The notes under the pieces were generated by a model, which did no database searches, was not told the origin of the DNA, and was given only the letters and a program-made list of their open reading frames with translations. Below are positions 6,000 through 40,982 of a stretch of DNA of 43,898 nucleotides, piece after piece. This DNA is from Gloeophyllum trabeum ATCC 11539 (lineage: Eukaryota; Basidiomycota; Agaricomycetes; Gloeophyllales; Gloeophyllaceae): positions 2,660,158-2,704,055 of the forward strand of contig NW_006920412.1 of the NCBI RefSeq assembly GCF_000344685.1, read 5' to 3'. Numbering within the stretch: position 1 is the stretch's first letter; every line of letters starts with the position of its first letter. The position numbers and the translations under genes are program-made.

Positions 6000-6591
6000 T
6001 TAGTAAGGCGCCAATATCTCGAAGGGACGTGCTGGATATCCGTTAGTAATTGCTTTCACTCAAAGGGAATGATCACTCACTCCCGCCGCTTGGAGTAGGA
6101 ATGTTGGACGCTTCATGTTGATTGTCTGTTCTCGTCTGCGTGTAGGAGGGTGACGCCGTGTGAGAATGTGTCCCGGTGTGAGAGGGCCCTTGCGAGTGCG
6201 AGTGCGCATGACCGGCATGTGAGCTATGAGAGCCGGAAATTGTGGCATCGAGAGAAGCTTGTACAGTGCTCGTGGTGGACTCGGAGACATCAACTGGAAA
6301 ACCGGGACCTTAGTGCCTCTGGGATGTCATCCAAGTATGGATATGCGTACCTGAGGAACTTAGGATGTCAACAGCCCTTCCCCACCATTCAGGATCTGTA
6401 TTTATATTAATGTCAGAACTGCTGACAACGCGAGGCAGGATCCACTATACCAGGCGGGGTGACTACAGGTGGGGTTAGCAGGGATGCGAAGTGCTAGACC
6501 GACTCTACTCACTCCGTGCTTTCAGCGGCGCCGCCATCACTTGGAAGGCGACAATAAGGAAGATAATGACGAGGGAGAAACAGTGCTTCAT
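6000..6591 (-). CDS. Small secreted peptide precursor with one WWG core and His-rich tail (family member A)
   Basis: Unrecognised as a named family; grouped here with the genes at 13462-14276 and 30541-30892. Exons in coding order are 6591-6513, 6395-6351, 6293-6081 and 6031-6000, for 122 residues. All three introns are phase 1. Residues 1-21 form a clear signal peptide (MKHCFSLVIIFLIV, then AFQVMAA). The second exon begins NPEWWGRAVD: the WWG core is kept, but only one basic residue follows, so the dibasic KR site of the sister genes is missing. The third exon is a Ser/Thr/His tail with about nine histidines, many as SH, GH or TH pairs, suggesting metal binding or O-glycosylation. The last intron has a strong branch site (TTACTAAC); if it is retained, the protein ends with SGGSE instead of RPFEILAPY. 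Confidence 0.72.
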
Positions 6592-6685
6592 TTTGATTAA
6601 TTTGAGTTAGGTTGACTAGAGATGATTAAGCTGAAGATGTGGATGGGTAGAGCTTGTCTGAGTGAGTAGGTTCCTTTGCCCCCTC

Positions 6686-6693
6686 CTTTTATA
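6686..6693 (-). promoter_or_regulatory. TATA box of precursor gene A
   Basis: TATAAAAG on the minus strand, about 95 bp upstream of the start at 6591, followed by a pyrimidine/purine-mixed leader. A canonical TATA so placed supports a real, probably regulated, gene. Confidence 0.6.
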
Positions 6694-6699
6694 CCCAAG

Positions 6700-8880
6700 A
6701 CCCCAGCGGCGATGCCTCATGTGAGTCATAGTGATATGCACTGCTACACCTGCAGTTCACTGACTACGTCCGCGGAGTCAGATGGTGACAGGCTGGTTGA
6801 CTGTGCCATCAGACCGTCATCCCTAGCAAGCGTGGGTTCAGATCTCAGGCGCTGCGAAGGCTCCAGTCCAGCGATCATTCTCGTCAGATCTCATCTTCAG
6901 GCAGTCCTCCGTTGCGTCTCAGGCCTCTTATAGCATCCGTATATAGGCCGCGGGTCTGTGGCACTATCCTGATTTGCGACGAATACTTGTGTGTCAAGCT
7001 ACTAGCTCTTAAGTTCACTCGAGTTGTTATACTGGACTATTTGCGACACATGTCCGCTCCGAAGCAACTACCCTCACTGTCAGAGGTTTAAACCTGAGGA
7101 TTGACAGTATATGCGGTCAACAGCAATAGTACTGAATGCGGGAATGCATAACTACCGAGAGGTTGTGCGTGGTGCGTACGTGGTCAAGATTAGATCTAAT
7201 ACTGATTAGTTTGTTACAGTGCATGTCCCTTAGCACAGCTTTGGCAGTTGCAAGAGCTCGCAGCTTCGGCACGGTTACGGTCAGACTGTTGACATTTCGG
7301 TGCCGCAGACGGATCAACGGATCAGTTGAGGGCATGGACGGGTATGTTGGTCTCAATCTGCAGCGCGCAATCACTGAGGAGTTAACATCATGGTTATTTT
7401 GACCTGCCTGAGCGGGCCTATTGCGTCGGGCGCATCTTCAGATTTCCGTAACATACGTCGCACATACAACCACTTCAGTGTTTCCTGGGCTGAATATTCA
7501 ATCAAATGTGATACGACGACACGCTGTTCTGGCATCTGCCATGCGGCGCAATTACAACACCAGCCTGGTCTATGCTATGCATTATCTGCGCTGCGTCTCC
7601 GCTCCAAATATAGGTCGCTATAGAGCCACATGTACGTATCGTTCCAAAAGCAGTGCATTCTCAAGCCTTCACCGACCACCCCCCTCCCCGCCCGCCAGTT
7701 AAAGCGAAGACGTTCGCAGTACGAACACGTATATAACGTGTCGTATCCGTCTTCGCCGCATCTATACTGCGCCTACGCGTAGACACCTGTGCTCCTGTCA
7801 ATGCCTTCAAATACATCGGGCTGTTCGTCCCAGTACGTGCACCGCAGGATGCTGTGGTAGCAGCTATGGGCTGCCTCTGACAAGACCTGCGCATTGAATG
7901 CCAAGTGCCTAATAGTGCCGTTCAAATTCACTTGTCCCATCCGAGTTGACCCAGTGCCACCGTCTCAGGACCAAACAAATGCACCAATTCCAGTGCTAGT
8001 GCTTAGTCTAAGTGCTATGCAGCTAGTTGAAAGATATTATTAGACATCCCTACTAAAGGTTCGTCAATGTTGCAATGTAGCCGGGATTCATATATCTTGG
8101 GTTCATGGCGTCTGCACAGGGGAATCTCCAGACCTGACTAGCAATCCGTGAAACCCCTTGATGCGGTGAGCCAAAAACGGATCGCTGGCCTTCGCTTGTC
8201 CCATTAAACAAGCTGTGAGCACTACCATGATGCATATATGTGATCCCGATGAGGGCGTTTTCCATTGACTCCTCGAAATAGACGGGTCTTGTCTAGAACT
8301 GTGCCACACCGACCCCAGGAGCGAGTCACAGAAGGAGGAAAAAAATATCATCATATCGCTTTTGAAATGCCACGAATATTCCCGCTACCGTAGGTAGTGG
8401 GTCTTGGACCCCCCGGCCGTTCGCAGGTTTCCTGCGATCGTTTCAAGATCTACGCGATCTATTTGACACTATTTGGCTCTTAACCGTATATGGTGGACGG
8501 CAGGACCGGCACATGGCTTTGGACCAATCAAAGATGGGGTCCTCAAAGGACCCCGATCGTAGAACCACGTGGCATCTCTCTTTCCATCTTTAGCCAAGGT
8601 GGCGGATGCTGGTCAAGGGACTCAAGAGAACAGACATGACCTAGCTTGGGGCGTTGGAGATGCGGCCTCCAGGTGAAAGCAGCATACTTCAATGTCAGCT
8701 GTTTTACATAAATGACTTGTATACTCAGAACCTGAGGGAGGAGTGAGTGGACATCTCTTCAAATCGTTGAGGTGAATGCTCATTCGGAAATCATGGCTGG
8801 AACACAACTGCTTTCGCAAAATAAATATATTAGTATATGATGCTGCTCAGGATGTCAAGTTTTCAGCTTGCTACCAAATC
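6700..8880. other. Gene-poor intergenic stretch
   Basis: About 2.2 kb upstream of precursor A in which I recognise no gene. Reading frames are short, overlap on both strands, and lack family motifs, signal peptides or consistent splice patterns. With the next 2.8 kb it forms the least gene-dense part of the window. Confidence 0.45.
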
Positions 8881-8894
8881 TTATTCCGCTGGCT

Positions 8895-9095
8895 TTACGC
8901 GATTCCTGCCTTATTAGGCAGGTGAGGCTCGGCGGTTCCCGGGTATTCCCACGCCTCGCGCGATGCGTCGACGCGTCGCCTTTCCTCCTCGTTCCCCGGC
9001 GGCTGCACCTCCTCGGGGATGTTTTGGCCCTCCTGTAGTATATAGAAGTTGTTGTATACTATACAAATGCGTGAATCTATTGGTAAAATACTCAA
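8895..9095 (-). pseudogene. Possible transposase C-terminal relic
   Basis: A minus-strand reading frame of about 66 codons includes VYNNFY, EEVQPPGNEEERRRVDASRE and ends PNKAGIA before a stop. The Pro/Glu/Arg-rich, strongly charged tail is unlike the surrounding non-coding DNA and resembles ends of fungal DDE transposases, but I cannot assign a superfamily. No terminal inverted repeats were found around it. It may equally be chance. Confidence 0.25.
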
Positions 9096-9217
9096 AAATT
9101 GTTCTCCCTGGTCAGTTTAGCTCCCAAGGGTCAGAAAGCGCTTCCGCGAGTGCTTAAGCACTCAATTTACCGCATAAGTGCTCAAAAGCACGGCCTAAGC
9201 GCCGTAAAGCATTTATG

Positions 9218-9275
9218 CCGCTGGATTTACGCCGATTTACAGGATTTACAGGCACGTGATGTGTGGATTTACGAG
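9218..9275. repeat. GATTTAC short repeat cluster
   Basis: Four copies of GGATTTAC/CGATTTAC within about 55 bp. Two more GATTTAC copies lie near 10081-10096. Low-complexity arrays of this sort occur inside degraded fungal transposons; no coding role is apparent. Confidence 0.5.
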
Positions 9276-9322
9276 CGCGTCACGCCAAGGGGCGGACACC
9301 GGGAGATGCCGAGACCACATGC

Positions 9323-9362
9323 AGGGGGAGGGGGGGGACCTCGGAGCCCTTAACTGAGATTT
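9323..9362. repeat. Imperfect direct repeat, copy 1
   Basis: A G-rich run followed by ACCTCGGAGCCCTTAACTGA and GATTT. A similar block recurs at 9628-9669, where the segment reads GGTCCCCTGGAGACCATTAA then CTGAGATTT. The two are about 305 bp apart in the same orientation. Confidence 0.5.
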
Positions 9363-9627
9363 ATTATCAGTTAAGCGCCCAGCCATCTGGGGTAAGGGAG
9401 CTAACGGGTAGGTATCTGGCACACCATTGGGTACTTTTGAGTAACCTAAATGCCTTTCTGAAGTATCCCAGAGAAAAGCGGTGAGAAAGAATGACCCCTG
9501 GTAGCGATCTTCAGAAAAACATATGAATTGTGACCGAAGTAGATGTGACACCCCCTGTGACAAAGTAACCCTAACCCTTGCTTGCTATGCGACATACCTT
9601 CCCTTTATGTACCGTGAGACTGTCCCA

Positions 9628-9669
9628 CGGGGGGAGGGGAGGTCCCCTGGAGACCATTAACTGAGATTT
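9628..9669. repeat. Imperfect direct repeat, copy 2
   Basis: Partner of 9323-9362: G-rich run, then a shared TTAACTGAGATTT end. Could mark a small internal duplication or the borders of an old insertion. Confidence 0.5.
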
Positions 9670-11686
9670 GTGGCATGTGGTCTAAAATTTTATTTCTGTC
9701 CGCCCCTTGCGTCACGCCCATCCGTACAATCACATCAAGCCGCCGCCGCTTCGCGCGGCGTTCCCGAGCGCTTCTCCCCATCAAACCCCGGGAACTTTGG
9801 CGCCCTTGTCGGGATACTCACTTGGGGACCCCAGGACGCGTGGCGTGTAATTAGGACGCGTCTGACGCGTCGAGGACCTACGTGCTCCTGGTCGAATAGT
9901 ATTATTTCTCGTATTTAGAGCTTTTGTATCTATTCAGAATAATATGTACAGTATCCCCCTTGTATCTACTATGTATCTGACACTACCCGGGACCTTTTAA
10001 TGCAGCGGGACTGAGAATTTTCGCGCTGTACTTGCTATCCCGTGCCATTAGCCACCGTTGACCCTGGGTCACGGCGGGGTCGATTTACGTAGATTTACAC
10101 AACTTCTTGTAAACTAAGCCAAATATCTGTACTTATCTATGTCTACGGTAGCGGGCTCTGCCGCTCGCACTGGGGAGACGCAACGCCTGCCAACGGCGCG
10201 AGTCGCTTAGTAAGCAGATTGTGGCTGAAGACTGGCACAAGTGCGCCTTGACCCAACTCGCTGTGTAATGACATCGGAGAGTGATTAGAATTTCTTGTAG
10301 GATGATATAATGGTTTTTTGGGATACAGAGGATGTGTAATGGCATCTTTTCCCTTTTACATAAGGATGTACATCATAGCTTTCCTATTCCCTCAATTCCC
10401 ATGCTCAACCACCCATTGATTGTGCTTGCAATGCTCAACAGATTACCTTGTGAGATCCCATATACATCATGAAAGGTGTATATTTATTTTATTCAGCTGA
10501 CTTGAGGCAGACTTAACCAATTAGCATGTATGACTCGGGATGGTACACTTCTTGTTATGGCTGTAGGCAGAGATATTATGCTTCAGTACACCCAAATATC
10601 TGCAAGGGAAGGGAACCATATCAAGAATGCTATATATGAAGTCTGAGAGAAGCTGTGCAGTCTTTAGTGCATTGGAGAGCGGAAAGGCGACCTCCAGTGT
10701 GACACCAGAACGCGGTTGTCACACACGTCACTCAGCCAGACGCGCTGATTTCAGGCGCGTTGTGACTCAAATGCGCCACGCGCATGCAGCTCCCTAGAGT
10801 CATTTTTGGCTCTTGCGACAGTAGTACCAAATGTTCTGAAGACATATCTGGATGTATCGGAAAACTCGGATTCTTCGAAAATGCATCGTATCTTGGAACA
10901 CTAGTCAAACAGATCTCTTTTTCACCCTATATGGAGGGAAAGAGGCAAAGTACCGGAAATCCAACATTTCCGATACATTTTAATCATCCTTCTGAGCATT
11001 TCTCTCAGCCATATCTTAGCCTGATTCTCGCAGTGTGAAGTGATCTACGTGTTCTCATTTTCGTGACACTCGCTATTAGGGAACAAACAAAGCCAAATAA
11101 CTCGCCGCGCGACCCAGGATTGCGTCTCCCCACTCGCACGGCCCTACCGCCTTATTTCATGGCGTGCGGTGAGACTGGGCGATGCCACGTGCTGCCGAGG
11201 TCTCAGTAGCACTAGTCACGATGATTGCTCGAGTGGCACGATTTCTCAAATCGAGGTATGAAAGCTATTCAACAACCTTGGTAGCTGAGATCTTCCTGCT
11301 GCCTCCGCAATTGGAGGGGGCCGAATGGGAAGTAGAATATTCTCTGCCTGAGGACGTCAAGAGGAAGTGTGCGGCACTGCCCGGTATCACTTTATCGCGC
11401 GACCCCGGCGCCACCCGATTAGGGCGCCTCGCCTCTCAATTTATGCATGTCGTCGACTTCGTTCCGTACAGCACATGAGCCTTGAATCCGAGCCAGGCGA
11501 CATTGAAATGGCTTTCGTGGACATCGCACTGCAAGGACGTGAATATCCATATTCTGATTCCCAGCCACATCGGTGGGAGTCGGGCCATAACCTGTGAATT
11601 GATTGTTCGAAGCTTCTCTTTCACTGATGTACTGACCAGGAATTCCACCATAAAAACCGCCTTTCAGGGACAATAAGAGCACCCAG
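9670..11686. other. Intergenic, no gene recognised
   Basis: About 2 kb before the F-box gene. A plus-strand frame at 11182-11478 encodes 98 residues (AEIFLLPPQLEGAEWEVEY is part) without a recognisable domain; I do not call it a gene. The rest shows nothing I can support. Confidence 0.4.
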
Positions 11687-13234
11687 ATGAGTGCGGCCTA
11701 TGAATCACGGGACGTCTGCTCATGCAGGAACAAGGAATCTCTCGTGCAACATAACGAATTAGCCACTATCAATCGCCTACCGGAGGAGCTACTGTGCGAC
11801 ATATTCCTCCGCACTCGCCCAGACGACGATGCTTGGGAACTACCCCTTCGTGTCTCACACGTGTGTTCTCACTGGCGTCTCGTCAGCCTGGGCTACCCTC
11901 TGCTTTGGAACCACGTGGACTTCGACTGTTTTGGTCCCGCCCTCATATCCGAACTCCTCTCTCGGACAAGAGGTACCACCCTCCATGTCCGGATTACGGA
12001 CAAAAGCTTATGTCGACATGACGTGCCGTCCCTGCGCAACCTGTGGCCATCCACCATCTCAAATGCATGCTTTCTGTCTCTGATATGCCCACGCATGGCG
12101 CTGGACTCGGATCTGTTCAATTGGCTTGTCTCGACGCCAGCTCCCCGGCTGGAATGGCTACAAATAGACGGCAGTGGCCTGTGGCACATCCAGAGTATTA
12201 GTCCGGATCAATTCTTTGGCGGACTATCGCCGACGCTTCAGCAACTAGACGCCTTGAATCTTCCTTGGGCATTGCAACCCGGCTTTTGCAAGGGCTTGTC
12301 AAAACTAAACCTAGTCTCGGGTAACAATATGCACTCTACAACCCACGACGGCTTCAACATTATACAAGTGCTGCGTGACTGCCCCGATATAGAACAGTTG
12401 ATATTACATGGACCTTATGATATGATAGGCCCCGACATGCCCGATATCTCCTGTCCGGTCAATCTACGACGGCTTCGGCAGTTAACTCTAAATCTTCAAG
12501 CTCACCTGCTCCTTTACGTCTTGCGTCACATCATAATTCCGCCGGGCAGCACCGTCAGAATTCAATCACGGGGGTTCCCCAGGTTTCCAGCAGCGTTAGC
12601 TGGCATTCCTCCCCATCTACCTTCCATAGGGCATATGGACGGCATAACAATTAGGATACGTTCCAACCCCTCGCGTTCTGACCTTTTCGCAAGAGAACTG
12701 AACATTAGCGGTACCACGATCTTTGGCGGCGAGCTCGGTATTGAACTTGACGATCAGTACTCAGGGTCGACTTTCCAAGGCAATATTGTGGATTCAATTC
12801 TTCGAACATACTCGTTCTCTGCCGTACGATGTCTGTGCATAGAGGGGGAACTCGCTGCGCCCTTGAGACGTATGGAGGCAGAGGACGTCGAGTCCGCGGT
12901 GAAGATTCTGCGACATGTTGTCAATTTGGAGGAATTGACGGTGCGCAGTATGTCAGACAGTTGCTCCAGACTCTGGGACGCCCTCGCGCGTGGGTGCCGG
13001 GATCGGCAGAGCCCTACGTTACCCGCTCTCAGCGTCCTCAAATTGCAGAGGTGTATCGTCACTCCGAGTTTAATGAAGTTCTTCTCGGCGTGGCCCTCAG
13101 TGAAGAACCTAAAGGTTCTGCAAATTGTATCTTGCATGAAGCAACGCATCATCTACAATGGGGATGTCATCGCGCAAATCCGGGAGCAACTGAGCTGGCT
13201 ATCTCCTGGGACGGATATTCAGGTAGTAAACTGA
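11687..13234 (+). CDS. F-box-like domain protein
   Basis: A single-exon gene of 515 residues. Near residues 26-75 it carries an F-box-like domain: INRLPEELLCDIFLRTRP, then LRVSHVCSHWRLVSLGYPLL and WNHVDF. F-box proteins link substrates to SCF (Skp1-Cullin-F-box) ubiquitin ligases. The remainder is Leu-rich with scattered LRR-like segments (for example LRRLRQLTLNLQ) typical of the expanded, fast-evolving F-box families of Agaricomycetes, but no regular repeat is clear. The start is the first ATG of the frame and precedes the F-box by about 25 residues. No substrate can be inferred. Its stop lies about 230 bp from that of the convergent precursor gene B. Confidence 0.88.
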   Translation: MSAAYESRDVCSCRNKESLVQHNELATINRLPEELLCDIFLRTRPDDDAWELPLRVSHVCSHWRLVSLGYPLLWNHVDFDCFGPALISELLSRTRGTTLHVRITDKSLCRHDVPSLRNLWPSTISNACFLSLICPRMALDSDLFNWLVSTPAPRLEWLQIDGSGLWHIQSISPDQFFGGLSPTLQQLDALNLPWALQPGFCKGLSKLNLVSGNNMHSTTHDGFNIIQVLRDCPDIEQLILHGPYDMIGPDMPDISCPVNLRRLRQLTLNLQAHLLLYVLRHIIIPPGSTVRIQSRGFPRFPAALAGIPPHLPSIGHMDGITIRIRSNPSRSDLFARELNISGTTIFGGELGIELDDQYSGSTFQGNIVDSILRTYSFSAVRCLCIEGELAAPLRRMEAEDVESAVKILRHVVNLEELTVRSMSDSCSRLWDALARGCRDRQSPTLPALSVLKLQRCIVTPSLMKFFSAWPSVKNLKVLQIVSCMKQRIIYNGDVIAQIREQLSWLSPGTDIQVVN

Positions 13235-13461
13235 AAGTGTATGTGCTCTTGCGACCTTCTCATGACTGATACTCATTCTAGTCGTTAGAACGCTCATCAC
13301 GTCACCCCAATGTTTCTTGCAGAACAATACATCACCGTCAGAGGCACATATGTACCTGACATAGAAATAAGTTACGGTACACCCTGAAATCTATTCTCTA
13401 AGGAAGTCCAGCTCATGCGATAACAAATGTAAAGACAAGACACTAGAAATCGACCATCGCT

Positions 13462-14276
13462 CTAGTACGATGTTGCCGTCGCAGCACCTTCGGACCGTTT
13501 GCCCCACCAAGCGGTGTCTAACATAGACCCATTAGTCTCGGCTGTGGAAGATATCTCCATCACTTACCGAACGGCGAGGAGGACGTCGTGTTGGACACAA
13601 TCGTTGTCTCCGCAGCACTGGTGGTCGTAGACGTGGTAGTAGGTGCGACGTCCCTCTTTCCCCACCAGTCAGTGTCTACCGCAGGACAGCCTTTAGTCTC
13701 CGCGGCAAATATCCATGCTCTCGCTTACCAAACGACAGGGTGGACCACGTGGCCGATACAGTCGTCATTTCTGCGACACTGGAGGTCGTTGTTGTCGTGG
13801 GCGTGTCAGCCCTCTTGCCCCACCATTCGGTATCTTGGGGATTATCTCAGACCAAGTCCGAGAACGACGTTACATGGTACGCACCTGGGCCGCTAATATG
13901 GGTCGCGACGCTGGACGTCGCTTGTGCTTTGCCCCACCAGGGCGCCTCTACTCTCTAGTGAGAACGGTACTTAACGGAGGCATCCTTCGGTTCCACTTAC
14001 CGGCCGTGATGCTCGTGGTGCTCGTTTTACTGGTTGGATCGACCTGTCTCTTACCCCACCATTCGGTATCTACGGGATAATTAACCCGATAAATTGGCTA
14101 TATACGCATCTGAGAGCTCACCTGGCGGGGTGATGATGGCTGTCGCTTTGTCAACCGGTCAGCAGGGTGTTCTGGGGGAATGGATTAGCTTCGAGATACG
14201 TACCAGAAGATTGAGCAGGGGCAGCGATGACGAACGTCAAGCTGACCAGCGCTGCAAGAGTGGCGAATGCTTGCAT
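13462..14276 (-). CDS. Secreted multi-copy peptide precursor with five WWGK repeats (family member B)
   Basis: Exons in coding order are 14276-14204, 14069-14001, 13947-13885, 13833-13729, 13675-13568 and 13517-13462, giving 157 residues. Exon 1 is a signal peptide (MQAFATLAALVSLTF, then VIAAPAQSS). Every later exon opens with one core: DTEWWGKRQ, EAPWWGKAQ, DTEWWGKRA, DTDWWGKRD and DTAWWGKRS. Each core is followed by a Thr/Ser-rich spacer of about 10-30 residues. All introns are phase 1, so cassettes can be added or lost without shifting the frame. KR is the classic Kex2 cleavage site in the secretory path, so the likely products are short peptides ending in WWG(KR). Core 2 has KA instead of KR and may not be cut. 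A degenerate extra cassette lies in the first intron (14122-14171). No maturation enzyme is encoded nearby. Confidence 0.75.
14122..14171 (-). pseudogene. Degenerate or alternative cassette exon of precursor B
   Basis: A 50-nt block between a good acceptor (14172) and a good donor (14121) within the region treated as intron 1 of gene B. Read in phase it gives EHPADRLTKRQPSSPRQ. The DRLTKRQ part aligns codon for codon with the EWWGKRQ of the next exon, with both Trp codons one base away (CGG and TTG for TGG). Its length is not compatible with the following phase-1 acceptor, so including it would break the frame. Confidence 0.4.
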
Positions 14277-14342
14277 TGTTCAAGTGGTGATTTGTGGACT
14301 AGGATGTAGCTGTGGTGAGCCGTACTACCCACCTTCCCTCTC

Positions 14343-14349
14343 TTTATAT
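14343..14349 (-). promoter_or_regulatory. TATA box of precursor gene B
   Basis: ATATAAA on the minus strand about 67 bp upstream of the start at 14276; similar spacing to the TATA boxes of the other small secreted genes here. Confidence 0.5.
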
Positions 14350-16419
14350 CCTGGACGAGTATATGCCTTTGTTTGCCGCATCGTAGAAGAGATCATGGAC
14401 TGGGCCTGTAGCTGTGTCAAATCTGGCCGTATGTTCCCGAGCAAACTCGATGCGTCTCACCTATCTTTGCTCCACACACCGCCTGTGCATCCATCTCGCG
14501 CCTCGCCGATGAGCTTCCAAGTGGCTTCGGCAGTGCCAGCTTGAGCGCTCAGTTCAAGAAATTCCGACTGGTCTCCAATAATCCCGAGCCGCTATCTCAG
14601 TTATTGTCTCCTCTCACTCATATCTCAACCTACCAAAGGCGTATGTGGGCGGCTAACGACGGCTTGGCAAGTGGTTATTGTGTATATCACTTTCGTTTCT
14701 CCAGCTCGACGCCAACAGAGACTTCCCGCGTCGTCTCTCTAAAAACTGCCCGCTGTCTCAATCCCGAAGGTAGGTGTCAAGGGGACAATACATTCTATCT
14801 GGTAAATTGTGATCTAACAGCTATGGGTACGGCACAGGCCTGATTATCGCGTGACAGGCGCGGGGACGTCAAGGCAATACGCCCTTCAAGTTCATAACCC
14901 GCGTTAGCTACTCTTGTACATCCATCTTTTCAAGTTGGATACCACCTCCATTAGCTGTCTTGACATTCAGCTGGCAAAAGAGGCCGGAACCTGCACTTCT
15001 TCAGGTCTCAGACCTCTTATTACTGATTGCACCAGGTTCTGGCCGGTGGTCTCGATGGTAGAGGCGAAGATGCAATATTCGTCGACAGGATACCGCGTTT
15101 CGATACAATCTGGAAGTCTGTACAGTGTCCGACTCTCGAGGAACATTCTGGCTGCGGAAGATACAGGCAGCTGATCGGCATTCTACTAGCACCATTGGCG
15201 TTGATCCGGCTCGACTGGTTTATTCAAGTTCCAATCAGTCTTGCAAAAGTAGCAGCGGTCCCAATGCGTCGCCGTAGGGCGAGGCCTCTCCTCAACTGCC
15301 AAATTGTCGGACACTCTAGGTTTCCATCATTGTATGGCCTCGCGCGGACGAACTACCTGTACGGAGTTATTGCTAGTCGCAGTAACCCGTCGATCCCAGA
15401 CATATACACCGTCGTACGTGCTGCGCTGTTTAATTGCTGCCTGCCAAGATGGCCACAAGTTGCTTGCTGGGTTATGTGTGACGTGCCGATCCTCGTTGGA
15501 ATATCAGGATGTCAAGCTGCCACTTAATCTATCTTATTCGTAATTAATCCCTTGATCTGCGATCGTGGTAAGGACATGAACGCCACGAAGGCGCACCCAA
15601 ATGCTATTTCTAGCCACTTGGCATAAAATGGTATGTCTGACCTCAACAATAAATCCACGGGTGGGACATCAACGTTTCTATGTCGTTCTAAAGCCGCGAT
15701 AACCTGATAAAGGCACGTCAATAAAGTCAAAGCGTCTGCAATGGATGCTGATGACCCTCATACCACGAGACTGAGGCTGGATGTTTCCTGAAACGGACTA
15801 CAGACGAGGAATCCTGATCTAGATCGAGGACGACGCCCCGTCCCAACTTTACGAGAGCTGACCGGAACTCAGTACAAGTAGAAACCAGTCAAAAAGCCCG
15901 TGGTTACGTGCGGTGCTCAAGTTCTAGCCGTGGTAACCTATTGCCCAGTGATAGATACCATGTGGCTGGGTGCTATAGCCTACCCATAGGCGGAGTTTGT
16001 AGGTTCGCTGGCACGGGGAGGTCCGCGATGGGCAGACTTGACGAACTACAGCGGCACGCTCCATTGCGTGTGATGAACGCGTTTGTTCCTGTGATTGATT
16101 CAACTGATTGCCAGACATCAAATCCATTCTCGGCCCCGAAACCTGTGTTCTCTTGCATGAAACAGATGCCCACCATACAGACGTCATTGCATATTGATGT
16201 CCGCCAATCGCGTTAGACGTGGACTTCGTCACTGCTGGCACGCACCCAATTGGCATAGTAAGGGAAGCCCTAACCCTAGTGCCTCAGCGTATGTGTGACG
16301 CATTTGAATTGCTTCCAGCAGTGATGCCGTAGGCCATCCAGAGGATGCCACCGAAACTGCCGCGGCCAGCCATATATTCGCAATACTCTATACAGGACAC
16401 CGCTCATCCCACGCACTAG
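14350..16419. other. Intergenic, no gene recognised
   Basis: About 2 kb between precursor B and the tryptophanyl-tRNA synthetase. Frames at 15027-15527 (+) and 15524-15730 (-) are open but contain no domain, signal peptide or splice pattern I can defend. The second, with SDIPFYAKWLEIAFGCAFVA, looks membrane-like and could be part of a small unrecognised gene. Confidence 0.4.
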
Positions 16420-20291: not shown

Positions 20292-20904
20292 ATGGCCGAT
20301 ATCAACAGCATCGCGAAGCAGTTCACCGAGTTCTACTACTCCACGTTCGACACGAACCGCGCCGGGCTGCAGTCTCTTTACGTGCGTCCTCCTTCGCAGC
20401 GATATCTGGGATCTGCCGCCTGACGAAAAGCAATCACGCTCGACTGTCCTTAGCGCGATGCCTCGATGCTCTCCTTTGAGGGCCAGCCCACCCAGGGCGC
20501 GGCTGCGATCGCAGAGAAATTGACCGTGAGTGCTGGTTTTTCGTCCAGGAATGCGATAAGATCGTGGCTGAACGCTGGTCGATTTCGCAGAGCCTGCCCT
20601 TTCAGAGAGTGCAGCATAAGATCACCACCCTCGATGCCCAGCCATCGTCGCCCACGATTGCCAGTCTCATCGTCAGCGTCACGGGTCTCCTACTGGTGCG
20701 TGTGGATCCTTGTATCACTTCCCATCAAGCATTCACGCGTCCGCAGGTCGACGACGGCGAGAATCCATTACAGTTCAGTCAGGTCTTCCAGCTGATACCG
20801 GAGGGAGGGAGCTACTACGTGTAAGCATGCACACTTGATTCATGTCTAGTCCTAAACGGTTCCCTAGCTTGAACGACATTTTCCGTCTCAATTACGGTGC
20901 ATAA
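20292..20904 (+). CDS. ntf2: Nuclear transport factor 2
   Basis: NTF2 dimers carry RanGDP back into the nucleus through FxFG nucleoporins. Exons are 20292-20381, 20454-20525, 20591-20695, 20747-20820 and 20868-20904, giving 125 residues, exactly the usual size. The protein begins [20 protein letters not shown], then [15 protein letters not shown], the Ran-facing region [17 protein letters not shown], a [16 protein letters not shown] strand and the C-terminal [11 protein letters not shown]. All introns are GT-AG and about 50-70 nt. It converges on vps1, with 315 bp between the stop codons. Nothing unusual. Confidence 0.96.
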
Positions 20905-21219
20905 CGAGGATCGTGACTGGCGATGGACGGTAAATAGAGCATGAGCAGTCCTATCCCTGTCAAACGTGCTTGTAATAGTGGAAAGACAGAGTTTGTATGT
21001 CTTGATGTAATGCGATTTTTGGTGGGAATTCTGGTGATATCACCTGCGATCGAAATCGATCTCCGAATACCTTCGAAGACCTGGGCGATGTCATAGAAGA
21101 AGGACATAGTGAAAGTGTTCCATGAGGATGAAGAAAGAAATATTACAGTACTACTATGCACAAGAGTGGAATAGCCAGAGCAGCCATAATCTAGAAACAA
21201 CCTATCAAGCCAACGTCCC
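20905..21219. other. Convergent intergenic region
   Basis: 315 bp between the ntf2 and vps1 stops; presumably both 3' UTRs. No gene seen. Confidence 0.5.
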
Positions 21220-23972
21220 TCATACTCCCGCCACGATCCTAGAAAATCGTTTCCATCAGCAAGAGCATGAAACACGACCTCAGAAAAGCACTTACTCTTC
21301 CGCTTTATTCAATGCCTGTATCATCGACACGACCTCCTTCCTCCGGCTCACGACGAACTCCGACTCCTTCAGCAGCTCATCCAGCACCTCGGGCTTGTAC
21401 AGCTCCTGTAGCAGCTCCCGCTGCAGGTTCTCCTTCGCAAAGTTCACGAGAGTCAGCGAAATCGCTTTTGGCACCATATCGATCATCTCCCGCTTCACGA
21501 TGTTGTAGTACGAGTGGATCAGGAGCTCTGCGCCGTCATCAGCCAGCAAATCAACGACCAGGGGAAAAGGGACGCACTGATAACCTCCGTCTCCATAACC
21601 TCCCTATCGCTCAGCGCCGACTGCGGCCTGATCACTGGCGGTGGCTACAGCAGAGTCACTTCAGCACAACTGCCACCCACGAACCAACTAGACGGACTTC
21701 ACTGACCGCTTCCATAGTCGCCGTCCCCTTCTTCTTCGTCTGCGCCGTCTTCCCGGCGAAGAACGACCCGAAGAAGCTCGGCTCCTCCTTCTTGGCATCT
21801 ACGTCCAGGTCTTTGTTGTTGTTGATCTGCCCGGGCGCGAGCTTGCCAGTCTTGGGGTCGGCCTGCTGCGGTGGGGGCTTGTTGGCGTTTAGTCGCTCGT
21901 TGACGATGGCCATAGCCTGGTAGGCAGGCTTAGTGTGGGCGCACAAACTCAAGGAGAAACGGTCCTACCTTGTGACCATTGAGGAAGTCGGGATGGGTCG
22001 TGTTAATGTAGCATGCTTGCATACTGAGAAAGAATGTCAAATCAATATCACGTTCTCACCTCGGTTAACCTGGATACTCACGCAACCAGGTCAGATACGA
22101 GTTTCGTGGTGGGGTTCATGGCCTTCTTGAAGAAGTTGACCACTACAGAGTTGAACCGGTCCCGGAGAGCAGGATAACGCCGGAACGCTTGCTGTAACAC
22201 ATACTTAGTCAGTGGAATCGGCCAGAGATGAGTAGTACGAGACGCTAACAATCTTCTGCAGTAGTTGCCCCAGGATGCGGATCAGCTCATCGTACACGAG
22301 GGTACTGCACTTCAGACTGGGCTCCTCCAATCGCTTGATCTGCTGCTTCACAATGACCTCGAAAGCCGTTGTCCCAACGAAGAGGGCTGGTGTCGAACCC
22401 TACCAATCCCCAATCAGCCCAGAGCCACATTACCGCGCAAGCACTTCGCTCACCGACGAGTTATACAAGATCGTCCTGATATCCCCGTCCTTCACTTGGT
22501 CGAACGGATCTATGCTCTTCACGCCATTGTTGAACAGTTCGTGGAACACAAAACTAATCCTAGCGCCACCCGAGAGCTCGTTCAGCGACAAGTCATTCGT
22601 GTTACCGTCGATCGACGAGCGGAACTCGGAGGTGAATTCCGTAATGACGCTGAGGACGATGTTCCCCGAGTTCCCGTCGCCCGTCGGCCCCCCGAGCGAC
22701 TGTAGTTCCGCGTTGTACTTGGATAGTTGTGACGATATGCGCGCCTTGATGTCCGGCAGCGTTGCACGGATGTGGTGCATCAGGATCTACGGCGCACCTT
22801 GATCAGCAGGGGTAATGCATCGGAGACTGGGATAAAATATACCATGTTCAGCTTGCGCGCCAGGAACGGCGTCCCGCAGTACTGCGCCTTGCCCTTGTAC
22901 GACGGGTGGTTCTCGAAGAACTGGCGCTCGTACTCGAGCGCAGCTTGGATCGGCTTGTTCGCCTCAATATCGCGCTGCCCGCGGTTGACCACGGGCACGT
23001 ACCCCAGGCGGAGCGGGATCACTCGGCCAGCGAGGATATCCACGACGTCCGTCCCGGCGTCCCTGCGCTTGGTCAGTGGATGAGATGAATGGCAAACAAG
23101 CCGGACTTACATCAAATCCACCTTCGTAAGCACACCGATCGTCCGCGTCCCCTCCGGATCCACCTCCCGCGCCAGCTTCAACCCATCCGAGTTCGCCAAG
23201 TCCGTGTTCGCCGCAGTCACCGCGAGGATGATACAGCTCGGCTTCGATATGTACTTGAGCAGCATCTCCCGGATCTGCTTCTCGATGTCGCGCGGCTGGT
23301 CGCCCACGGGGACCTTTGTCAGGCCGGGCAGGTCGACGAGCGTGAGCGTGAGGACGTTGGGCGAGAAGATGCGCAGGTTGATGGGGAGCGGGGAGATGCC
23401 TGCGTTCTTGCCCGTCTTCGCCTCGGTGTCGCGGACGATCTCCGCGCGGATCTTGTTGAAGTCGTAGAACTTTTCGCCGGGGAGGTGCAGGAATTCACCC
23501 CACTCGTCGGCGTTGGCGGCCTTGTCGCCGTCTGCTGCGCCGTTGGGGGCTGGCGCTGAGGAGCCAGTCAGTGAGGAAATGGAAAGGCCTAACGAGCGAC
23601 TCACATGAGGTGCCATTCGTTTGTGCGGTAGCTGGGCGGTTGATGAGTTGTAGGACCTGTATATTCCATCAGGCATTGTAGGATGAAGTCATAATCCATT
23701 AACGTACGAGGGGTCGCCGCGTCACAATCCCCGTTCCACGGGGCAAGAAGTCTCGTCCGACGATGTTCTAGGTTGCAGACATACATCAGTATAGCAAAGC
23801 TAACAAAACACACCCTTGAACTCACCTCCAGCACACTACTCTTTCCACTACTCTGACTGCCCAGCACGCATATTTGCGGCAAGTCTATTGAGTTGGCCGA
23901 CGAGCCCACCGCGGTAAAGACATCCTGTAGTTTGTTGATGACAGAGACCACCTCCGTTCCGAGATTCGCCAT
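21220..23972 (-). CDS. vps1: Dynamin-like GTPase Vps1
   Basis: Large GTPase for membrane scission in vacuolar sorting, endocytosis and peroxisome division. Thirteen exons in coding order: 23972-23826, 23767-23708, 23656-23605, 23555-23111, 23062-22843, 22786-22454, 22399-22250, 22191-22082, 22023-21969, 21916-21707, 21644-21578, 21527-21296 and 21238-21220, giving 699 residues. The GTPase domain carries [12 protein letters not shown] (P-loop), [34 protein letters not shown] and [35 protein letters not shown] identifies the Vps1 rather than the Dnm1 branch. The stalk holds [20 protein letters not shown] and [15 protein letters not shown], then a variable linker (about residues 510-600), and the GED ends [20 protein letters not shown] with the last IVAGV on its own short exon. 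No pleckstrin domain, as expected. Confidence 0.95.
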
Positions 23973-24869
23973 TTCGAAAGGTCAATTTACAGTCGTTCGG
24001 TAGGAAGAGGAGGGAGGGTATAAGCGTTGGAAGCAGCAGGCCAGGCGACTGCGACGCGTTTGCCCAAAGCGGGTCAAATAACAACTCCGCTCTCCGCAGC
24101 GAAATGCGACGCTGTGCTTGATCTCTTACTTCCACGTCTTTCTCTTGTTGTCCATCTTGCTGAGGTTAGTCTGGAGGGTTACTGCCGGGCTGAAGACTAC
24201 AAAAGCGGGCTAGGAATATCTCCCAGTTGAATGCTCTAGTGTCTCCTGGTCTTGCTGCTATCTTGCAGCTATCCTGGGTGGTGTGGCGTCAAGCTGATAT
24301 ATCCCTTCTTCACCAAGGCTCTCAGCCAAACCAGCTGGTTGTATATCTTCGGATCTTAATTCTTCTGCTGAAGACTTTCGCGATCTCTGGATACTCTCTT
24401 GACCGGTTGTGCTCGCCGTGGCTTGGTCCTTGCCCTGTTCACTCACGTTGTTACTGTCTCTGACGTTCTACCGACGTTCGACAGCCTTTTGGATCTTCAG
24501 TTGATCTTGCGGAGTTTCCCTTTCAATTTCTGCCATGGCTTCGCCCGCCAAACGCCATATGACTCTTGCGTAGACCTCTTGCTGTTCCTATCGGACGACT
24601 CCCTAACTGCGGCGTGACAGATGCACGGTAAATTCCGCATGTCCTGAAAGTATACGTACTCGATACTCTCTAGATGTGCGAAATGTATCATGTCCGTTGC
24701 GCCAGGATTTCTGAACGAAGGAATTCCTGCCGGTCCGCTCGTCTACAAGTGCGTGACGTTGGTCACTCGTGACAATCCAGCACGGAGTCAAAAACGGGTC
24801 ATGAGAACGAGGCGACCATCTGCTATATATACCGGCCTCCTCGCAGCCATCGTTTCAGCCGCTACCGCC
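23973..24869. other. Intergenic: vps1 promoter and GH88 promoter
   Basis: About 900 bp between divergent genes. One ACGCGT lies near 24054 on the vps1 side. On the other side a TATATATA is seen at 24824-24831. No gene recognised. Confidence 0.45.
24824..24831 (+). promoter_or_regulatory. TATA box of the GH88 gene
   Basis: TATATATA about 40 bp before the start codon at 24870. Such close spacing implies a very short 5' leader and speaks against the upstream in-frame ATG near 24690 as the start. Confidence 0.5.
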
Positions 24870-26728
24870 ATGCGACTATTCACTCTCGTCGCGGCGGCTT
24901 GTCTTACTGGGTCATCCTGGGCAGCATCGGTGCCTGCGGAGCTGTTCTCCCCGCTCGTGGCCTCTAAATTCCTGCAGACAGCGCAGAACGTGCCGAATCC
25001 CGTTCAGTATCCCCAATATACCGACCGCTCGCAAGGCGTATGGCAGTACTTCCCGGCGGACTACTGGACCACTGGCTTCCTCCCTGCTTCTTACTATGCC
25101 CTGCACACGCGCTTCGCCTCGCTCTGCCCGAACTCTAGCGCCGCGCAACAATTCCTGGACCTGGGGAGGAGTCTGAGCGCGCCTGAGGTTGCGCTGGAGC
25201 AGCACACGACGGTGGGGCATGATGTAGGGTTTCTGAGTTTTCCCTTCGTGCAGGAGCTGGCAGTGTGAGTGGGCGCGAGCGCGAGCGTGCGAGGTATGCG
25301 TGCTCAGGGCTTTGACAGAGATTCGAGCAATCAGACTGCGGTCACCGCGGTGAATACGTTTGCGACTCTCTTGGCGGATCGGTTTAATCCTATCGTGGGC
25401 TGCACGAGGAGTTGGGACACGTCGGATCCTACCGATTTTCAAGTGAGTTTATACCGCGTACCAGATACGCAGCAGTTAACATTGCTCTCCAGGTGATCAT
25501 CGACAACATGATGAACCTGCAGGTGAATCAGTGCCCCGTGTTGAGGTTCCTTGAATGCTTGTTCTGACACTTGACGCCGTTCCGAGGTGCTCTTCGATTC
25601 GATGGCTTTGACAGGGAACACGACCCTGCGGGACATCGCTATGTCCCACGCAGACAAGACGGCCCAGAATCATATTCGGCCCGACGGTCAGTGTCGTGCA
25701 TTGTAAACGTCTTAACATGTGCCAACTGGGGGTCTGCAGGTTCTTCGTACCACGTCGTCGAATACAACTCGACCACCGGGGATGTCATCAGGCGGAGGAC
25801 CGCGCAGGGGTACGCTGATAATAGGCGCGCTGGCTTTCATTCATGTTATCCTTCTGCTCTTGGCTTAATGGTGAATATAGTACGTGGACACGCGGGCAAG
25901 CGTGGGGGATCTACGGTTTCGCTAATAGTCCGTACACTCTGGGTGTCTGTAGCTGATATCCGAGACTAACACCACACATCTTTCGTCTAGTGTATCGCAA
26001 CACGAACGAGTCCCGGTACATCGAGACGGCGCGACGGATGGCCTCGTTCTATCTCTCGCAAGTACCGTCTGACGGTATTGTGCCATGGTCAGTGTCCTTC
26101 TCGTGCCGGGTCTGTTCGATCCTAAGATTCGTGAACGATGTAGGGACTTCGACGCGCCTCTCGATCCGCCACGACCAGCAGACAGCTCTGCTGCTATGAT
26201 CGCCACCGTCGGCCTGCTCATGTTGTCCCAGCAAGAGGCATCCCTATCTCCTTCGAACACCACGGGTGCGCAGTACTGGAGTAACGCCGCCATCAAGGTG
26301 ATCCTCCACTATGTTTTTGATGGGTGCATGAAAGCTGATCATGTTTCGTTGCTGTTCGTGATCTCAACTGTCTATCGTTGATGCGATAGTTGTTGAGTGA
26401 TAACACTGCGTTTGCGTGGAAGCCCGAGTGGCAGAGTTTGCTTTCGAACGGGACGGTGAATAACCCAGCTTCGCCGCCCAATAACCTCACTGGGATCATA
26501 TACGGTGCGGTCACCTACGCCCTTGCACAATTCAAGCGCAATATACGGAGTACTGATGAAACTACAGGGGACTACTACTTCGTGGAAGCAGGGAATCAAT
26601 TGATCTCCATGGGTCTTGCATCATGTTCGGGCAACTCAACTTCTCCCGCGAGCCCATCATCGTCCATCCAGCCAGGCCAACAACACACATCCGGAGCTCC
26701 CCGAACAAGACGCATGTGGTTGTTGTAG
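24870..26728 (+). CDS. Secreted GH88-type unsaturated glucuronyl hydrolase (six-hairpin glycosidase)
   Basis: Predicted extracellular hydrolase that removes unsaturated uronic acid from the ends of lyase-cut polysaccharides. Exons are 24870-25264, 25319-25442, 25493-25522, 25587-25686, 25740-25824, 25881-25927, 25991-26087, 26144-26297, 26390-26504 and 26568-26728, giving 435 residues. Residues 1-18 (MRLFTLVAAACLTGSSWA) are a signal peptide, which fixes the start. Family blocks are FPADYWTTGFLPASYYAL, VGHDVGFLSFPFVQELAV, VIIDNMMNLQ, GSSYHVVEYNSTTGDV, AQGYADNSTWTRGQAWGIYG and PSDGIVPWDFDAP. Asp in the DNMMNL and YADNSTW segments are the expected catalytic residues by family knowledge. The donor at 25825 reads AG|GCGCGC, a GC site needed to keep frame. 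The C-terminus adds a Ser/Pro/Gln-rich tail of about 30 residues. Confidence 0.88.
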
Positions 26729-27507
26729 ACTCGTCGTTACCGATACGTAGACAGCTGTGATATCACAAGCGAGTCATTGAGTCGTCTTAAGGCGCTCCAC
26801 AATACGCCTGTATTCCTCCGGGAATCCGCCTGGCTTCGAGTCAGGTCATGAAAGGTAGAAGGGCATGACACTTGAGAATGAAAGAGCGCGGCAGAGTCCT
26901 CGCGAACAATGTCTTGTGACTCCAGAGAACAAGCCAACTGCCCTACCAGGCGACAAAGAACCAGACAGAAACAAGGTTCCTTGAAGAGCGTCAATCTTCA
27001 AGATGCACCGCTTGTGATTGAGAAAATGCAGAGCTTCCAGTATCGGACCATTTGTCATGCGGGTGGGAACGGCCGGTGTACGGGCGCCTGTGCGTGTACG
27101 CCATTGTTCAGGACATGGTAAGCAATGGGACCACTGGCGACGTTGACGAGTCCAGCAGCGGTAGAGTGTGCATAACGAGCAAACCATGGTCGGCGGCGGC
27201 GACGACAGCGACGTTCCAAAGAGTTCCAGAGACGACGACGAGGAACCGCCCGGAGCCGAGGTTGACGTGGTGGTTGATTGATAAGACGTGTGTGGCTCAC
27301 AGTTTACGGTTGTTTGGCTCTGACTCGATCGTCGGAGTTTGAATGCCCAGGTATATAAGAGCGGGTCCTGCGTCGCCTGTTCACCCCTCTCACCCCCCGT
27401 AGAGATTCCCACGCCTCACACGCGTTAATTTTTCCATCCTCTACGCGTCGCAGCGTTATACTCTACTGCTCATCGGTTCATTTCAACCCTTTCGTCGGCT
27501 GTAGAAG
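26729..27507. other. Intergenic: promoter of the TBP gene
   Basis: About 780 bp. A TATATAAG lies at 27352-27359, about 150 bp before the TBP start, and ACGCGT occurs near 27420 and 27443. No gene recognised; overlapping open frames on both strands are not supported. Confidence 0.45.
27352..27359 (+). promoter_or_regulatory. TATA box upstream of the TATA-binding protein gene
   Basis: TATATAAG in a good position (about 150 bp before the ATG, allowing a leader of roughly 120 nt). TBP may therefore act on its own promoter; inference only. Confidence 0.45.
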
Positions 27508-28697
27508 ATGTCGTTCTTGCCTACTCGCCAGGTTACATTCGGGCGCTCGAATGTGCCACAACATCAAGTGAACTTCCAGGCGCAGCAGCAGTTCCAGCAG
27601 CAGCAGGCGCAGCAAAATCAACAGCAGCAGCAGCCCAACTTCGGGCTTGCGCTGCCGTCGTCGGGGCCCCAGCTGCCTCTACCCAATCTATCCCTTCCCG
27701 GCCCTACCCCATCCATCCCGCCACAGCCGCATCAGCCCCGCCAGCCCTCTCCTCTGCGATCGCAGTTCTCGCCTTCGGATTCGCAGTCGCAAACCGTTGC
27801 GCCGTCGCAGACGAACGCTGTTGCGGGGCCGTCGACGCCGACGGTCCCGGCTACTCCTGCACCTCTCACCCTCGAGCAGCAGCACATCACTGCCGTCGAG
27901 GGCATCGTTCCTACCCTCCAAAACATCGTGGCCACCGTCAACCTTGACTGTCGTCTTGATCTGAAGACGATTGCCCTGCACGCTAGGAATGCGGAGTACA
28001 ATCCTAAGGTAGGCTACCTTCATTCTCATCGCTATGGTGCAGACGAACTTCTTCTTCGTTCGTCGTCACTTAGCGTTTCGCCGCTGTGATCATGCGGATA
28101 CGTGACCCCAAGACCACTGCCCTGATCTTTGCGTCGGGCAAGATGGTCGTGACGGGTGCCAAGTCGGAAGATGACTCCCGTCTGGCGTCGCGCAAGTACG
28201 CTCGGATTATCCAGAAGCTTGGCTTCGACGCCAAGTTCTCCGAGTTCAAGATCCAGAACATCGTGGGCAGCTGCGATGTCAAGTTCCCTATCCGCTTGGA
28301 GGGTCTGGCATACAGCCATGGTCAGTTCAGCAGTTACGAGCCTGAGGTACGTCGTCGGTTACGTTTTAGTGAGGACTGGGACTGACTTCTGTGTTAGCTG
28401 TTCCCCGGCTTGATTTACCGCATGATTAAGCCCAAGGTCGTGCTGCTGGTCTTCGTTTCTGGGAAGATTGTCTTGACCGGAGCTAAGGTAAAGTACCATT
28501 TCCATCTATCATGTTCTCGAATCTTCGGCATGCGCTGGTCGCTGCCGAGATGATGCTTGACTCGGGTTCTGTCCGAGGTCCTACCATGTTCATCGGATGC
28601 TGACCGCCGTCTTCACCCTGTACATCAGGTTCGAGAGGAGATCTACACGGCGTTCAACACGATATATACGGTTTTGTGCGAATTCCGCAAGCCGTGA
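27508..28697 (+). CDS. tbp1: TATA-box-binding protein
   Basis: General transcription factor used by all three RNA polymerases. Exons are 27508-28008, 28074-28346, 28398-28487 and 28629-28697, giving 310 residues. The first 125 residues are a Gln-rich then Pro/Ser-rich region, with five consecutive Gln in one run and many QQ pairs. The C-terminal 180 residues are the conserved saddle: [100 protein letters not shown] and [16 protein letters not shown]. Both direct repeats of the saddle are present, including the paired FASGK/FVSGK turns. The last intron is the longest of the gene at 141 nt. The long N-terminus is typical of fungi other than yeasts. Confidence 0.96.
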
Positions 28698-30540
28698 TCG
28701 CCTGCGCTGCTCCTGTCCCCAGCGCACCCCATGTCTTCCCTTATGTTTCCTATACCCACTGTCACGATCCCATACCCACCAAGGACCATCGACCATCTCT
28801 TCTCGTTCTGTTGCCTGTGTCTTGTGTCACGTTTGGGGGTTGATGTGTGTCTTGGGTGGCAGTTGGGATTGGGCGGTGGCGTAAAATCTTTTGACGAGTC
28901 CGAGGGGCATCAGGTGGATGAGCGGACGTAGCGCACGGTTGATGCTTGTTCTTCTCCCTCGATCGGTTTACTCTAGATTATTTCTGTTTATCGTCTCTTA
29001 ATTGTGTGCAATAGTGGGACTGTGCAATAAACCTGTACATCAGAGCAACAGTAATTAATACATACGCCATCATCTCAAACGTTTACGTGCAGGTTTGTGG
29101 CGTTCATACGGCAAAGTCAATCTGGTTAATCATCCCCTTCACCTTGTGTTCCCTGTATCTCCACGCGTGCTATGGACAAGTGATATTGAGGTCAAGCGTA
29201 AGCTCGATAGCCGGAGAGAACTTAAACCAATAGCATTGAGGTGGCGATAGTTCGTCGTTGAAGACGACCTTGATCATGAGCAGGTGCCCCGCACTTGCAG
29301 CGCCGGGCATCTATTATGTTCACATCCGGCGAGGGTGAGAGTACTTATTTTCCACGGGAGGGAGATCTTGAAGTGTGGTAGGGCTGGCGCAACCTGGGTC
29401 GGAGACCAATACTACCTTACTGCTGTGCCTATATGCGCGCCTCCACTGGAATCTCCGGGCTTGAAGTGGACCTCGAAGTCTGTTTCATGCCCCCCTCCCC
29501 TGAACTGTGATACTCCGTGGCTGGCAATGCGCCGCACAGGGTGAGTACTAAGTCTTTCTGGCAGATGTGAGTTGACGAACCACCGCACTCGCTTGATGAT
29601 GCTTCCTGCAAGTGGCCTACGGGTTAGGGTTTATGTTTGGAGGGTGCGTAGTCGCTGGCGGTGCAAGGAATTGCAGATGCGTCTCATCCCGCCGGCCCAT
29701 GGGGGATTTGAATGCTGATATATTGTTGATACAGGCCTTTTGCTTGGTCTCCGAGCGACGTCCTTCGTTGTGGCAGGGGCCACTCACGCGCCACCAGGCC
29801 GCAGCCTTCAGTCATCTGGAGCACCAGGATCTGTGTGGATGCTGCCTTGCGTTCCGTCACCGCATTGTGTAGCACCATCCGTGTCGGTCGACGTATTAAC
29901 TGTCGCAATGTGGAAATGACGGTGCAACCTCGTTCGACGGCAGCGCACTTAACCTCGTTACGTCTATTCCTGGACTGTCGCGTTGCAGAACATCGGAGGC
30001 CGACCCATGCGCATCAACGATGCTGGGAATGGACGTACAATCGAACAATGGTTCTCAGCCGGGAACACTGGTCGGTTGTATTGATCAGGGGCAATAACTT
30101 GAAACGCGATACACCTACGAGGTTGTGCGTGACCGATGGTTTTTCTTCTTCACGGCTAACAAGAGCAGTTGGTTCATAGGGAACCACCCGCCGGCCGCCC
30201 CGCTGCAGGTTAAACATGGCGAGCGAAAATATGGAAGAGGAGAGAGACGAATCCAGAATTTGGACGCAACATTCTCGGTGTATATGAGATGCTATCGCAG
30301 CCTGAGGCCAATCAGTGCAAGTGTAAGTACCAGTTCTCGTCGTCAAGCTGCGACACTTACTCGCGTCCCCGCTGGGATCGCAGCCACTAGCATTCAGTCA
30401 AGCCAGAGCCTCATGCGAGACGCCGCAGAGCGGCGTAGCATCCTCCTTATTATGGACTTGTTGGTGACCCGACCGTAGGATAAAAGGCCACAAGCAAAGC
30501 CGGTGTCTCCAGTTATCTAACCCACAAGTACATCCTATTC
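28698..30540. other. Intergenic, no gene recognised
   Basis: About 1.8 kb between the TBP stop and precursor C. The first 350 bp are likely the TBP 3' UTR. Open frames around 29284-29544, 29612-29908 and 30014-30478 overlap on both strands and have no family signal. A TATA-like GATAAAAGG at 30479-30487 belongs to the next gene. Confidence 0.4.
30479..30487 (+). promoter_or_regulatory. TATA-like element of precursor gene C
   Basis: GATAAAAGG about 54 bp before the start at 30541. Weaker than the TATA boxes of genes A and B but in a matching place. Confidence 0.4.
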
Positions 30541-30892
30541 ATGAAGTCAGTACTAGCATTTTTCACAGTCGCGGCGGCTATTGTTCAAAGTACCGCCGCA
30601 CCCCAAAGTAGCGGCACAGGTAAGTCGCGTTCATTCAACTTTCTCGAGCCTTTTCTAAAGTGACTGACGATGACGACAGGTGGTACCGCTGACGTCTTAG
30701 ACAATGGCCAGGCTTGGAAGCAATATTGCAGCTTTCCTACGAGCTTTGTCCTGCCGACATTTACGTTCTGTGAGTAGCTGCTTTTCAGACAGCGGGTACA
30801 TTGGAGCTCACCTTCGAGCAATGACAGCATTCGAGCCGGACTGGTGGGGCAAGCGAGCTCAAGAGACGGGTAGGCCCGCACAGGATAAATAA
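30541..30892 (+). CDS. Small secreted peptide precursor with one WWGKR core (family member C)
   Basis: Third member of the family at 6000-6591 and 13462-14276. Exons are 30541-30619, 30680-30769 and 30828-30892, giving 77 residues; both introns are phase 1. Exon 1 is 79 nt, the same length as exon 1 of gene A, and encodes a signal peptide (MKSVLAFFTVAAAIVQSTAA) followed by PQSSGT. The last exon encodes FEPDWWGKRAQETGRPAQDK: an acidic residue, WWG, then KR and a short tail. The middle exon (GGTADVLDNG and about 20 more residues, with one Cys) is the least certain part. Skipping it also keeps the frame, so two isoforms are possible. Predicted Kex2 cleavage after KR would free a peptide ending in PDWWG(KR). 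No similarity to mating pheromones: there is no CaaX end. Confidence 0.68.
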
Positions 30893-40909: not shown

Positions 40910-40982
40910 CGTTGTGAGTGTTGTTGAATGGTGGTAATGAACTTGAGTGTGCACTGAGGATTTCAAACACAGAACACTCACC

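Follow-up and report, generated by a model that had tools for sequence, protein, structure and literature searches.

Fungal Kex2-repeat precursors are recognized by a motif that recurs three or more times with KR, RR, or KK sites in between, and one published survey of this class requires that at least three repeats be present in annotated proteins (PMC6339444). In the Basidiomycota, XSDW is described as a conserved Kex2-repeat motif (PMC6339444), and peptides ending in -AADW have been detected by mass spectrometry in Lentinula and Pleurotus (PMC9769878). In the same report, precursors from Coprinopsis were expressed in Pichia pastoris, six single precursor knockouts in Coprinopsis had no phenotype, and synthetic peptides had no antibacterial activity (PMC9769878). 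Here, we describe three small genes (A, B, and C) predicted within 25 kb of a 43,898-nucleotide (nt) stretch of the Gloeophyllum trabeum ATCC 11539 genome (contig NW_006920412.1, positions 2,660,158 to 2,704,055, hereafter “the window,” to which all coordinates refer unless another contig is named). The analysis supports an earlier note on this DNA in that the three genes form a local family whose products are predicted to be secreted precursors with a common WWG-[KR] motif. Gene B is probably a divergent Kex2-processed repeat precursor, from which short, linear, Ser/Thr-rich peptides ending in Asp-x-x-Trp-Trp-Gly (DxxWWG) would be released.

The gene models were built by eye with GT-AG introns from the sequence alone, and the spliced models end exactly at the boundaries proposed in the earlier note. 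Gene B (13462-14276, minus strand; 7 exons, 163 amino acids) contains WWG five times, and in the model every unit occupies a separate exon of phase 1-1: DTEWWGKR in WWG exon 1 (14001-14069), EAPWWGKA, which has no dibasic site, in WWG exon 2 (13885-13947), DTEWWGKR in WWG exon 3 (13729-13833), DTDWWGKR in WWG exon 4 (13568-13675), and DTAWWGKR in WWG exon 5, which is the last exon (13462-13517). Thus, WWGKR occurs in four of the five. Gene A (6000-6591, minus strand; 126 amino acids) is modelled with five exons (6513-6591, 6451-6462, 6351-6395, 6081-6293, and 6000-6031), and its single WWG (ITPPDPEWWGRA) lies in the third of these (DPEWWGRA). The second half of its product is rich in His and Ser; exon 4 (6081-6293), which reads SHSSHAGHAHSHSQGPSHTGTHSHT, is a possible metal-binding stretch. 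Gene C (30541-30892, plus strand; 77 amino acids) has three exons (30541-30619, 30680-30769, and 30828-30892), the last of which encodes a single WWGKR close to the C-terminus (FEPDWWGKRAQ).

At the N-terminus of the three predicted proteins, a hydrophobic segment precedes small residues and Ala-Pro, a signal-like start judged by hydropathy rather than by a dedicated predictor, and a phase-1 intron follows this segment in each gene. The combination of signal-like start, phase-1 intron, and shared motif reported in the earlier note was thereby confirmed; moreover, all 12 introns of the models are GT-AG introns of phase 1 with lengths of 49-64 nt, those of gene B being mutually non-independent as parts of duplicated cassettes. 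TATA-like boxes are found 62-102 bases upstream of the ATG: TATAAA at 6688-6693 (minus strand; 102 bases) for gene A, TATAAA at 14343-14348 (minus strand; 72 bases) for gene B, and GATAAAA at 30479-30485 (plus strand; 62 bases) for gene C. Among 58 signal-like starts in approximately 84 kb (the window and four 10-kb flanks, of which approximately 9.7 kb is N), only four passed a joint filter for a signal-like start, a TATA-like box, and a phase-1 donor: those of the three genes and another that lies antisense to gene B. This filter was designed on the three genes and shows the rarity of the combination, not proof of it.

The seven copies of the core align as [DE]-x-x-W-W-G-[KR], five being in gene B and one each in gene A (DPEWWGRA) and gene C (EPDWWGKR). 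The residue ahead of xxWWG, for which the earlier note had also allowed Asn, is acidic in 7/7 copies and never Asn. WWG is likewise invariant (7/7). KR, which the note called the usual Kex2 site, is present in five copies, whereas gene B copy 2 reads WWGKA and gene A reads WWGRA, so that gene A has no dibasic site at all. The Gly codons vary (GGT, GGC, GGC, GGA, and GGC in gene B, GGA in gene A, and GGC in gene C), and synonymous Lys (AAG and AAA) and Arg (AGA, AGG, CGG, and CGA) codons are used across the five KR copies. Because WWG is invariant in spite of this variation in Gly, Lys, and Arg codons, the pattern points to selection acting on the peptide.

The abundance of the motif in the window exceeds what composition would give. 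The window contains five WWG[KR][KR] matches, whereas 200 dinucleotide shuffles gave 0.025 on average and never more than 1; for a splice acceptor followed by WWG[KR], six matches stand against an average of 0.005 and, again, never more than 1. Judging by the 16 matches to the WWG[KR]R pattern outside the window, 0.02 would be expected per window. That the three genes represent chance resemblances or decayed relics might be argued from models predicted from sequence alone and from the two copies that lack a dibasic site. This explanation is strongly disfavored and highly improbable, given the shuffle results and genome-wide counts, the open and consistently phased exons, the invariant core with its synonymous codon variation, and a likeness between genes A and B that spans two introns.

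This likeness corrects the earlier note, according to which the genes had no overall similarity. Genes A and B share the order of signal exon, microexon, and WWG exon. The microexon comprises 12 nt in gene A (6451-6462, minus strand; ITPP) and 18 nt in its gene B counterpart (14122-14139, minus strand; IITPP), and is of phase 1-1 in both. The two proteins match with a BLASTP E of 5e-7, signal region included, and have ITPPDxEWWG in common, while gene C matches gene B at SFxxDWWGKR (E 3e-5). When the mature parts were shuffled 2000 times, the observed score was reached by no shuffle for A-B, by 1 for C-B, and by 13 for C-A; an alignment of the three whole proteins was poor and was left unused. 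In gene B, units 3, 4, and 5 recur at a spacing of 158 nt, and units 3 and 4, the only pair compared, are identical at 70% of exon and 74% of intron positions (ungapped columns). Since the identity covers introns as well as exons, it is exon-intron cassettes that were duplicated in gene B. In addition, the inner exons are of phase 1-1, so that gain, loss, or skipping of a copy would preserve the reading frame. It is tempting to speculate, although only tentatively, that this is a lineage-specific, modular peptide-hormone locus, in which DxxWWG units are symmetric phase-1 cassette exons that may be gained, lost, or skipped in frame, and in which one gene would yield variable sets of glycosylated peptides ending in WWG.

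Pattern searches of this genome (35.5 Mb in 34 contigs, the window being on contig C3) returned the members at the locus and none elsewhere; each of the three patterns used misses some variants, so that a diverged member is possible. The WWG[KR]R pattern, which admits Ser in the last codon, omits first-position Arg encoded by CGN, and misses gene A and gene B copy 2, had 21 matches, five in the window (four in gene B and one in gene C) and 16 outside. Twelve of the outside loci translate to WWG[KR][KR], and none of the 16 resembled the family when 35 residues on each side were considered, one of them (L013) having been checked in a longer context. A pattern of acceptor, phase 1, and WWG, which misses gene B copy 3 and gene C, had nine matches; five were in the window, and the other four proved unrelated on inspection of approximately 1 kb each. 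The TPP-microexon pattern matched four times, in genes A and B and at two sites that were unrelated when inspected; a first, shorter pattern had three matches, one of them outside the window. When the window was searched together with 40 kb of flanking DNA (approximately 9.7 kb of it N) for an aromatic residue, W, an optional residue, and a dibasic site after an acceptor, four family copies were found and a further site at 15123 (TFWLRK), which is not a member of the WWG family.

In the most likely model, the products of the three genes would pass through the secretory pathway, where the Ser/Thr-rich stretch ahead of each core would be O-glycosylated. The Kex2-like protease of this genome, in which the Kex2-type P-domain and DPPIV_N have one match each, would cut after KR, and a putative Kex1-like carboxypeptidase would trim Lys and Arg to leave ends such as ...DTEWWG. 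In silico digestion of the gene B product gives the signal start and then fragments that end in WWGKR; once trimmed, the predicted products have monoisotopic masses, without modification, of 1925.92 (if the signal is cut after residue 18), 4472.12, 3553.57, and 3490.59 Da. The peptides would be released as extracellular signal or interaction peptides, by analogy with proposals for other mushroom Kex2-repeat peptides. Genes A and C would be single-copy relatives from the same ancestor, and the gene A product would either require cleavage after a single Arg or stay whole. The reading of the earlier note, that the three genes look like Kex2-processed repeat precursors or ribosomal peptide precursors, is supported in part: three or more repeats with dibasic sites are found in gene B alone (four WWGKR), gene C has one such site and fits weakly, and gene A, with none, does not fit.

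Several observations weigh against processing of this kind. The gene B fragments ending at KR comprise 20-44 residues and resemble one another mainly over their final seven or so, whereas classical Kex2 repeats are near-identical. KR is absent from two of the seven copies, and gene A has no dibasic site, while WWG never varies; therefore, the WWG motif and not the cleavage site may be what is conserved, and WWG itself may be the part that makes functional contacts in a protein that is not cut. The corresponding alternative, that the products of genes A, B, and C are not peptide precursors but persist uncut as O-glycosylated proteins, rich in Ser and Thr and either secreted or in the wall, with WWG-K/R as a binding or contact motif repeated on a stalk, is rather unlikely but deserves consideration. 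The variable second basic residue and the His/Ser-rich second half of the gene A product agree with it, as does a Ser and Thr content of 38% in mature B and 30% in A, yet that of C is only 19%. On the other hand, KR follows WWG in five copies, with synonymous Arg codons, at the position where Trp-ending repeat peptides of mushrooms have their dibasic sites, and a Pfam scan of A, B, and C found no domain at its cut-off.

Conservation across species likewise found no support in protein homology searches, which covered 5.8 billion proteins, with fungi present in the database, and used queries from gene B only. The whole protein had no homologue at E 1 among 4910 candidates, and residues 26-85 had no candidate with three shared words. 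An SDW-repeat query used as a control retrieved four proteins at E ≤1 among 6162 candidates; DW-[KR]R repeats are present in every one of them, and one is from Ramaria rubella. The null result for gene B hints at a narrow distribution, although not strongly, because small intron-rich genes are often mis-predicted and the fungal coverage of the database is of uncertain depth. No mention of WWGKR was found in the open-access papers searched, and no description of the family among the titles and abstract openings listed; papers matching wider forms of the motif were, among those listed, unrelated by title. The supplementary tables of the published surveys, which lie outside these, could contain gene B.

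Two further fates of the core would involve modification. The order W-W-G-K-R corresponds to the animal amidation layout, in which Gly is the amide donor and is followed by a dibasic site, and to our knowledge higher fungi have no amidating enzyme. If Gly-Lys-Arg directed amidation in the way known from animal neuropeptides, the product would end in Trp-Trp-amide, and the invariant Gly (7/7) agrees with this; the route nevertheless seems improbable. A genome search for the PF03712 mono-oxygenase domain had no match, but no control genome gave one either, so that the search does not show absence. In addition, amidation was among the modifications sought in Coprinopsis peptides, and the available part of that report describes linear, minimally modified peptides and mentions no amidated one (PMC9769878). 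A slightly poorer candidate still is a cyclized, dikaritin-like ribosomal peptide for which the precursors would be served by a UstYa-type enzyme encoded elsewhere. The genome has at least 13 UstYa matches, and Trp could provide a cross-link site, but none of the matches listed is on contig C3, so that no UstYa/DUF3328 gene was seen near the precursors. In basidiomycetes, a UstYa gene is reported near only 103 of 1680 Kex2-repeat genes (PMC7329392), a rarity that itself speaks against a dikaritin route. The view of the earlier note that the window contains no tailoring enzyme was upheld as far as it was probed, as no tailoring family was found in 20 selected frames among the 79 of at least 120 residues.

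In 11 of these 20 frames a Pfam family was matched at E 0.01, and the matches included Rad1 (two frames), F-box, a class I tRNA synthetase of the Trp/Tyr type, dynamin, TBP, and DUF7330. The other four of the 11, below Pfam's own cut-off, were PI-PLC-X-like, SLOG-like, G-path-suppressor-like, and SAP-like frames, the last two of which we take, by eye, to be one Rad18-like gene. Gene A is the sole gene seen in approximately 7 kb (4732-11653) without a stop-to-stop frame of at least 120 amino acids on either strand, and this gene-poor stretch also contains a 39-nt direct repeat (9324-9362 and 9631-9669; 72% identity, 307 nt apart). A frame at 24648-25265 has a signal-like start and, by eye, the look of a secreted enzyme, with no Pfam match. 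At 38146-38362 and 40697-40910 (minus strand), duplicated tiny genes with very short exons encode Cys-rich proteins with signal-like starts; the copy at 40.8 kb begins MFISRVITAVVTVAVLAIGANAQCC in a partial model. Elsewhere, the single PF00141 match in the genome suggests, but does not show, that there is no expanded set of lignin peroxidases.

A family such as this, with repeats on separate small exons, microexons of 12 and 18 nt, and single-copy members, could easily be mis-annotated or missed. If the peptides are made, they would constitute a second class of Trp-containing secreted peptides in G. trabeum beside the SDW kind, and the genomic layout would make their copy number evolvable via exon duplication. 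The SDW kind is represented by two canonical (G/A)SDW-KR Kex2-repeat genes on other contigs (C1:3244028-3244299, loci L054-L061; C16:213518-213915, locus L070), which conform to the basidiomycete XSDW motif. They account for 23 of the 41 genome matches to a W-K-R pair pattern (25 in the reversed control), and a W-R-R pair pattern had 148 matches as compared with 108 in its control. Both genes have three exons, of which the first encodes the signal, the second is short, and the third holds the repeats, and both end in ...SDW-stop; all four of their introns are of phase 0.

Of the closest known systems, the XSDW and -AADW precursors share with the WWG genes a signal peptide, repeats in which an acidic residue and a Trp precede the dibasic site, and a small precursor (PMC6339444; PMC9769878). 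However, the SDW genes of this genome have short, near-identical repeats in one exon, phase-0 introns, EP dipeptide spacers, and a core ending in a single W, whereas the WWG genes have long Ser/Thr-rich spacers, phase-1 introns (12/12), one exon per repeat, and a core of [DE]xxWWG; xSDW directly before KR or RR is found in none of A, B, and C. The repeat of MiSSP8 from Laccaria bicolor is DW-R-R, and we know of no WWG and no exon-per-repeat layout in that protein. Like the predicted product of gene B, MiSSP8 is a secreted precursor in which repeats are accompanied by Kex2 sites (PMC7329392). Ascomycete alpha-pheromone precursors also combine a signal peptide with several peptide copies separated by KR, and alpha pheromones are described as not being used in basidiomycete mating (PMC6339444); gene B has no XA/XP dipeptide directly after KR, and its core is unrelated. 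Dikaritin and ustiloxin precursors resemble gene B in their signal peptide and in repeats set apart by Kex2 sites, and differ in that the WWG core has no Tyr and in the lack of a UstYa gene on the contig among the matches listed. Consequently, gene B would work like a Kex2-repeat precursor while differing from the SDW genes in its core, its spacers, its intron phase, and its arrangement of one exon per repeat.

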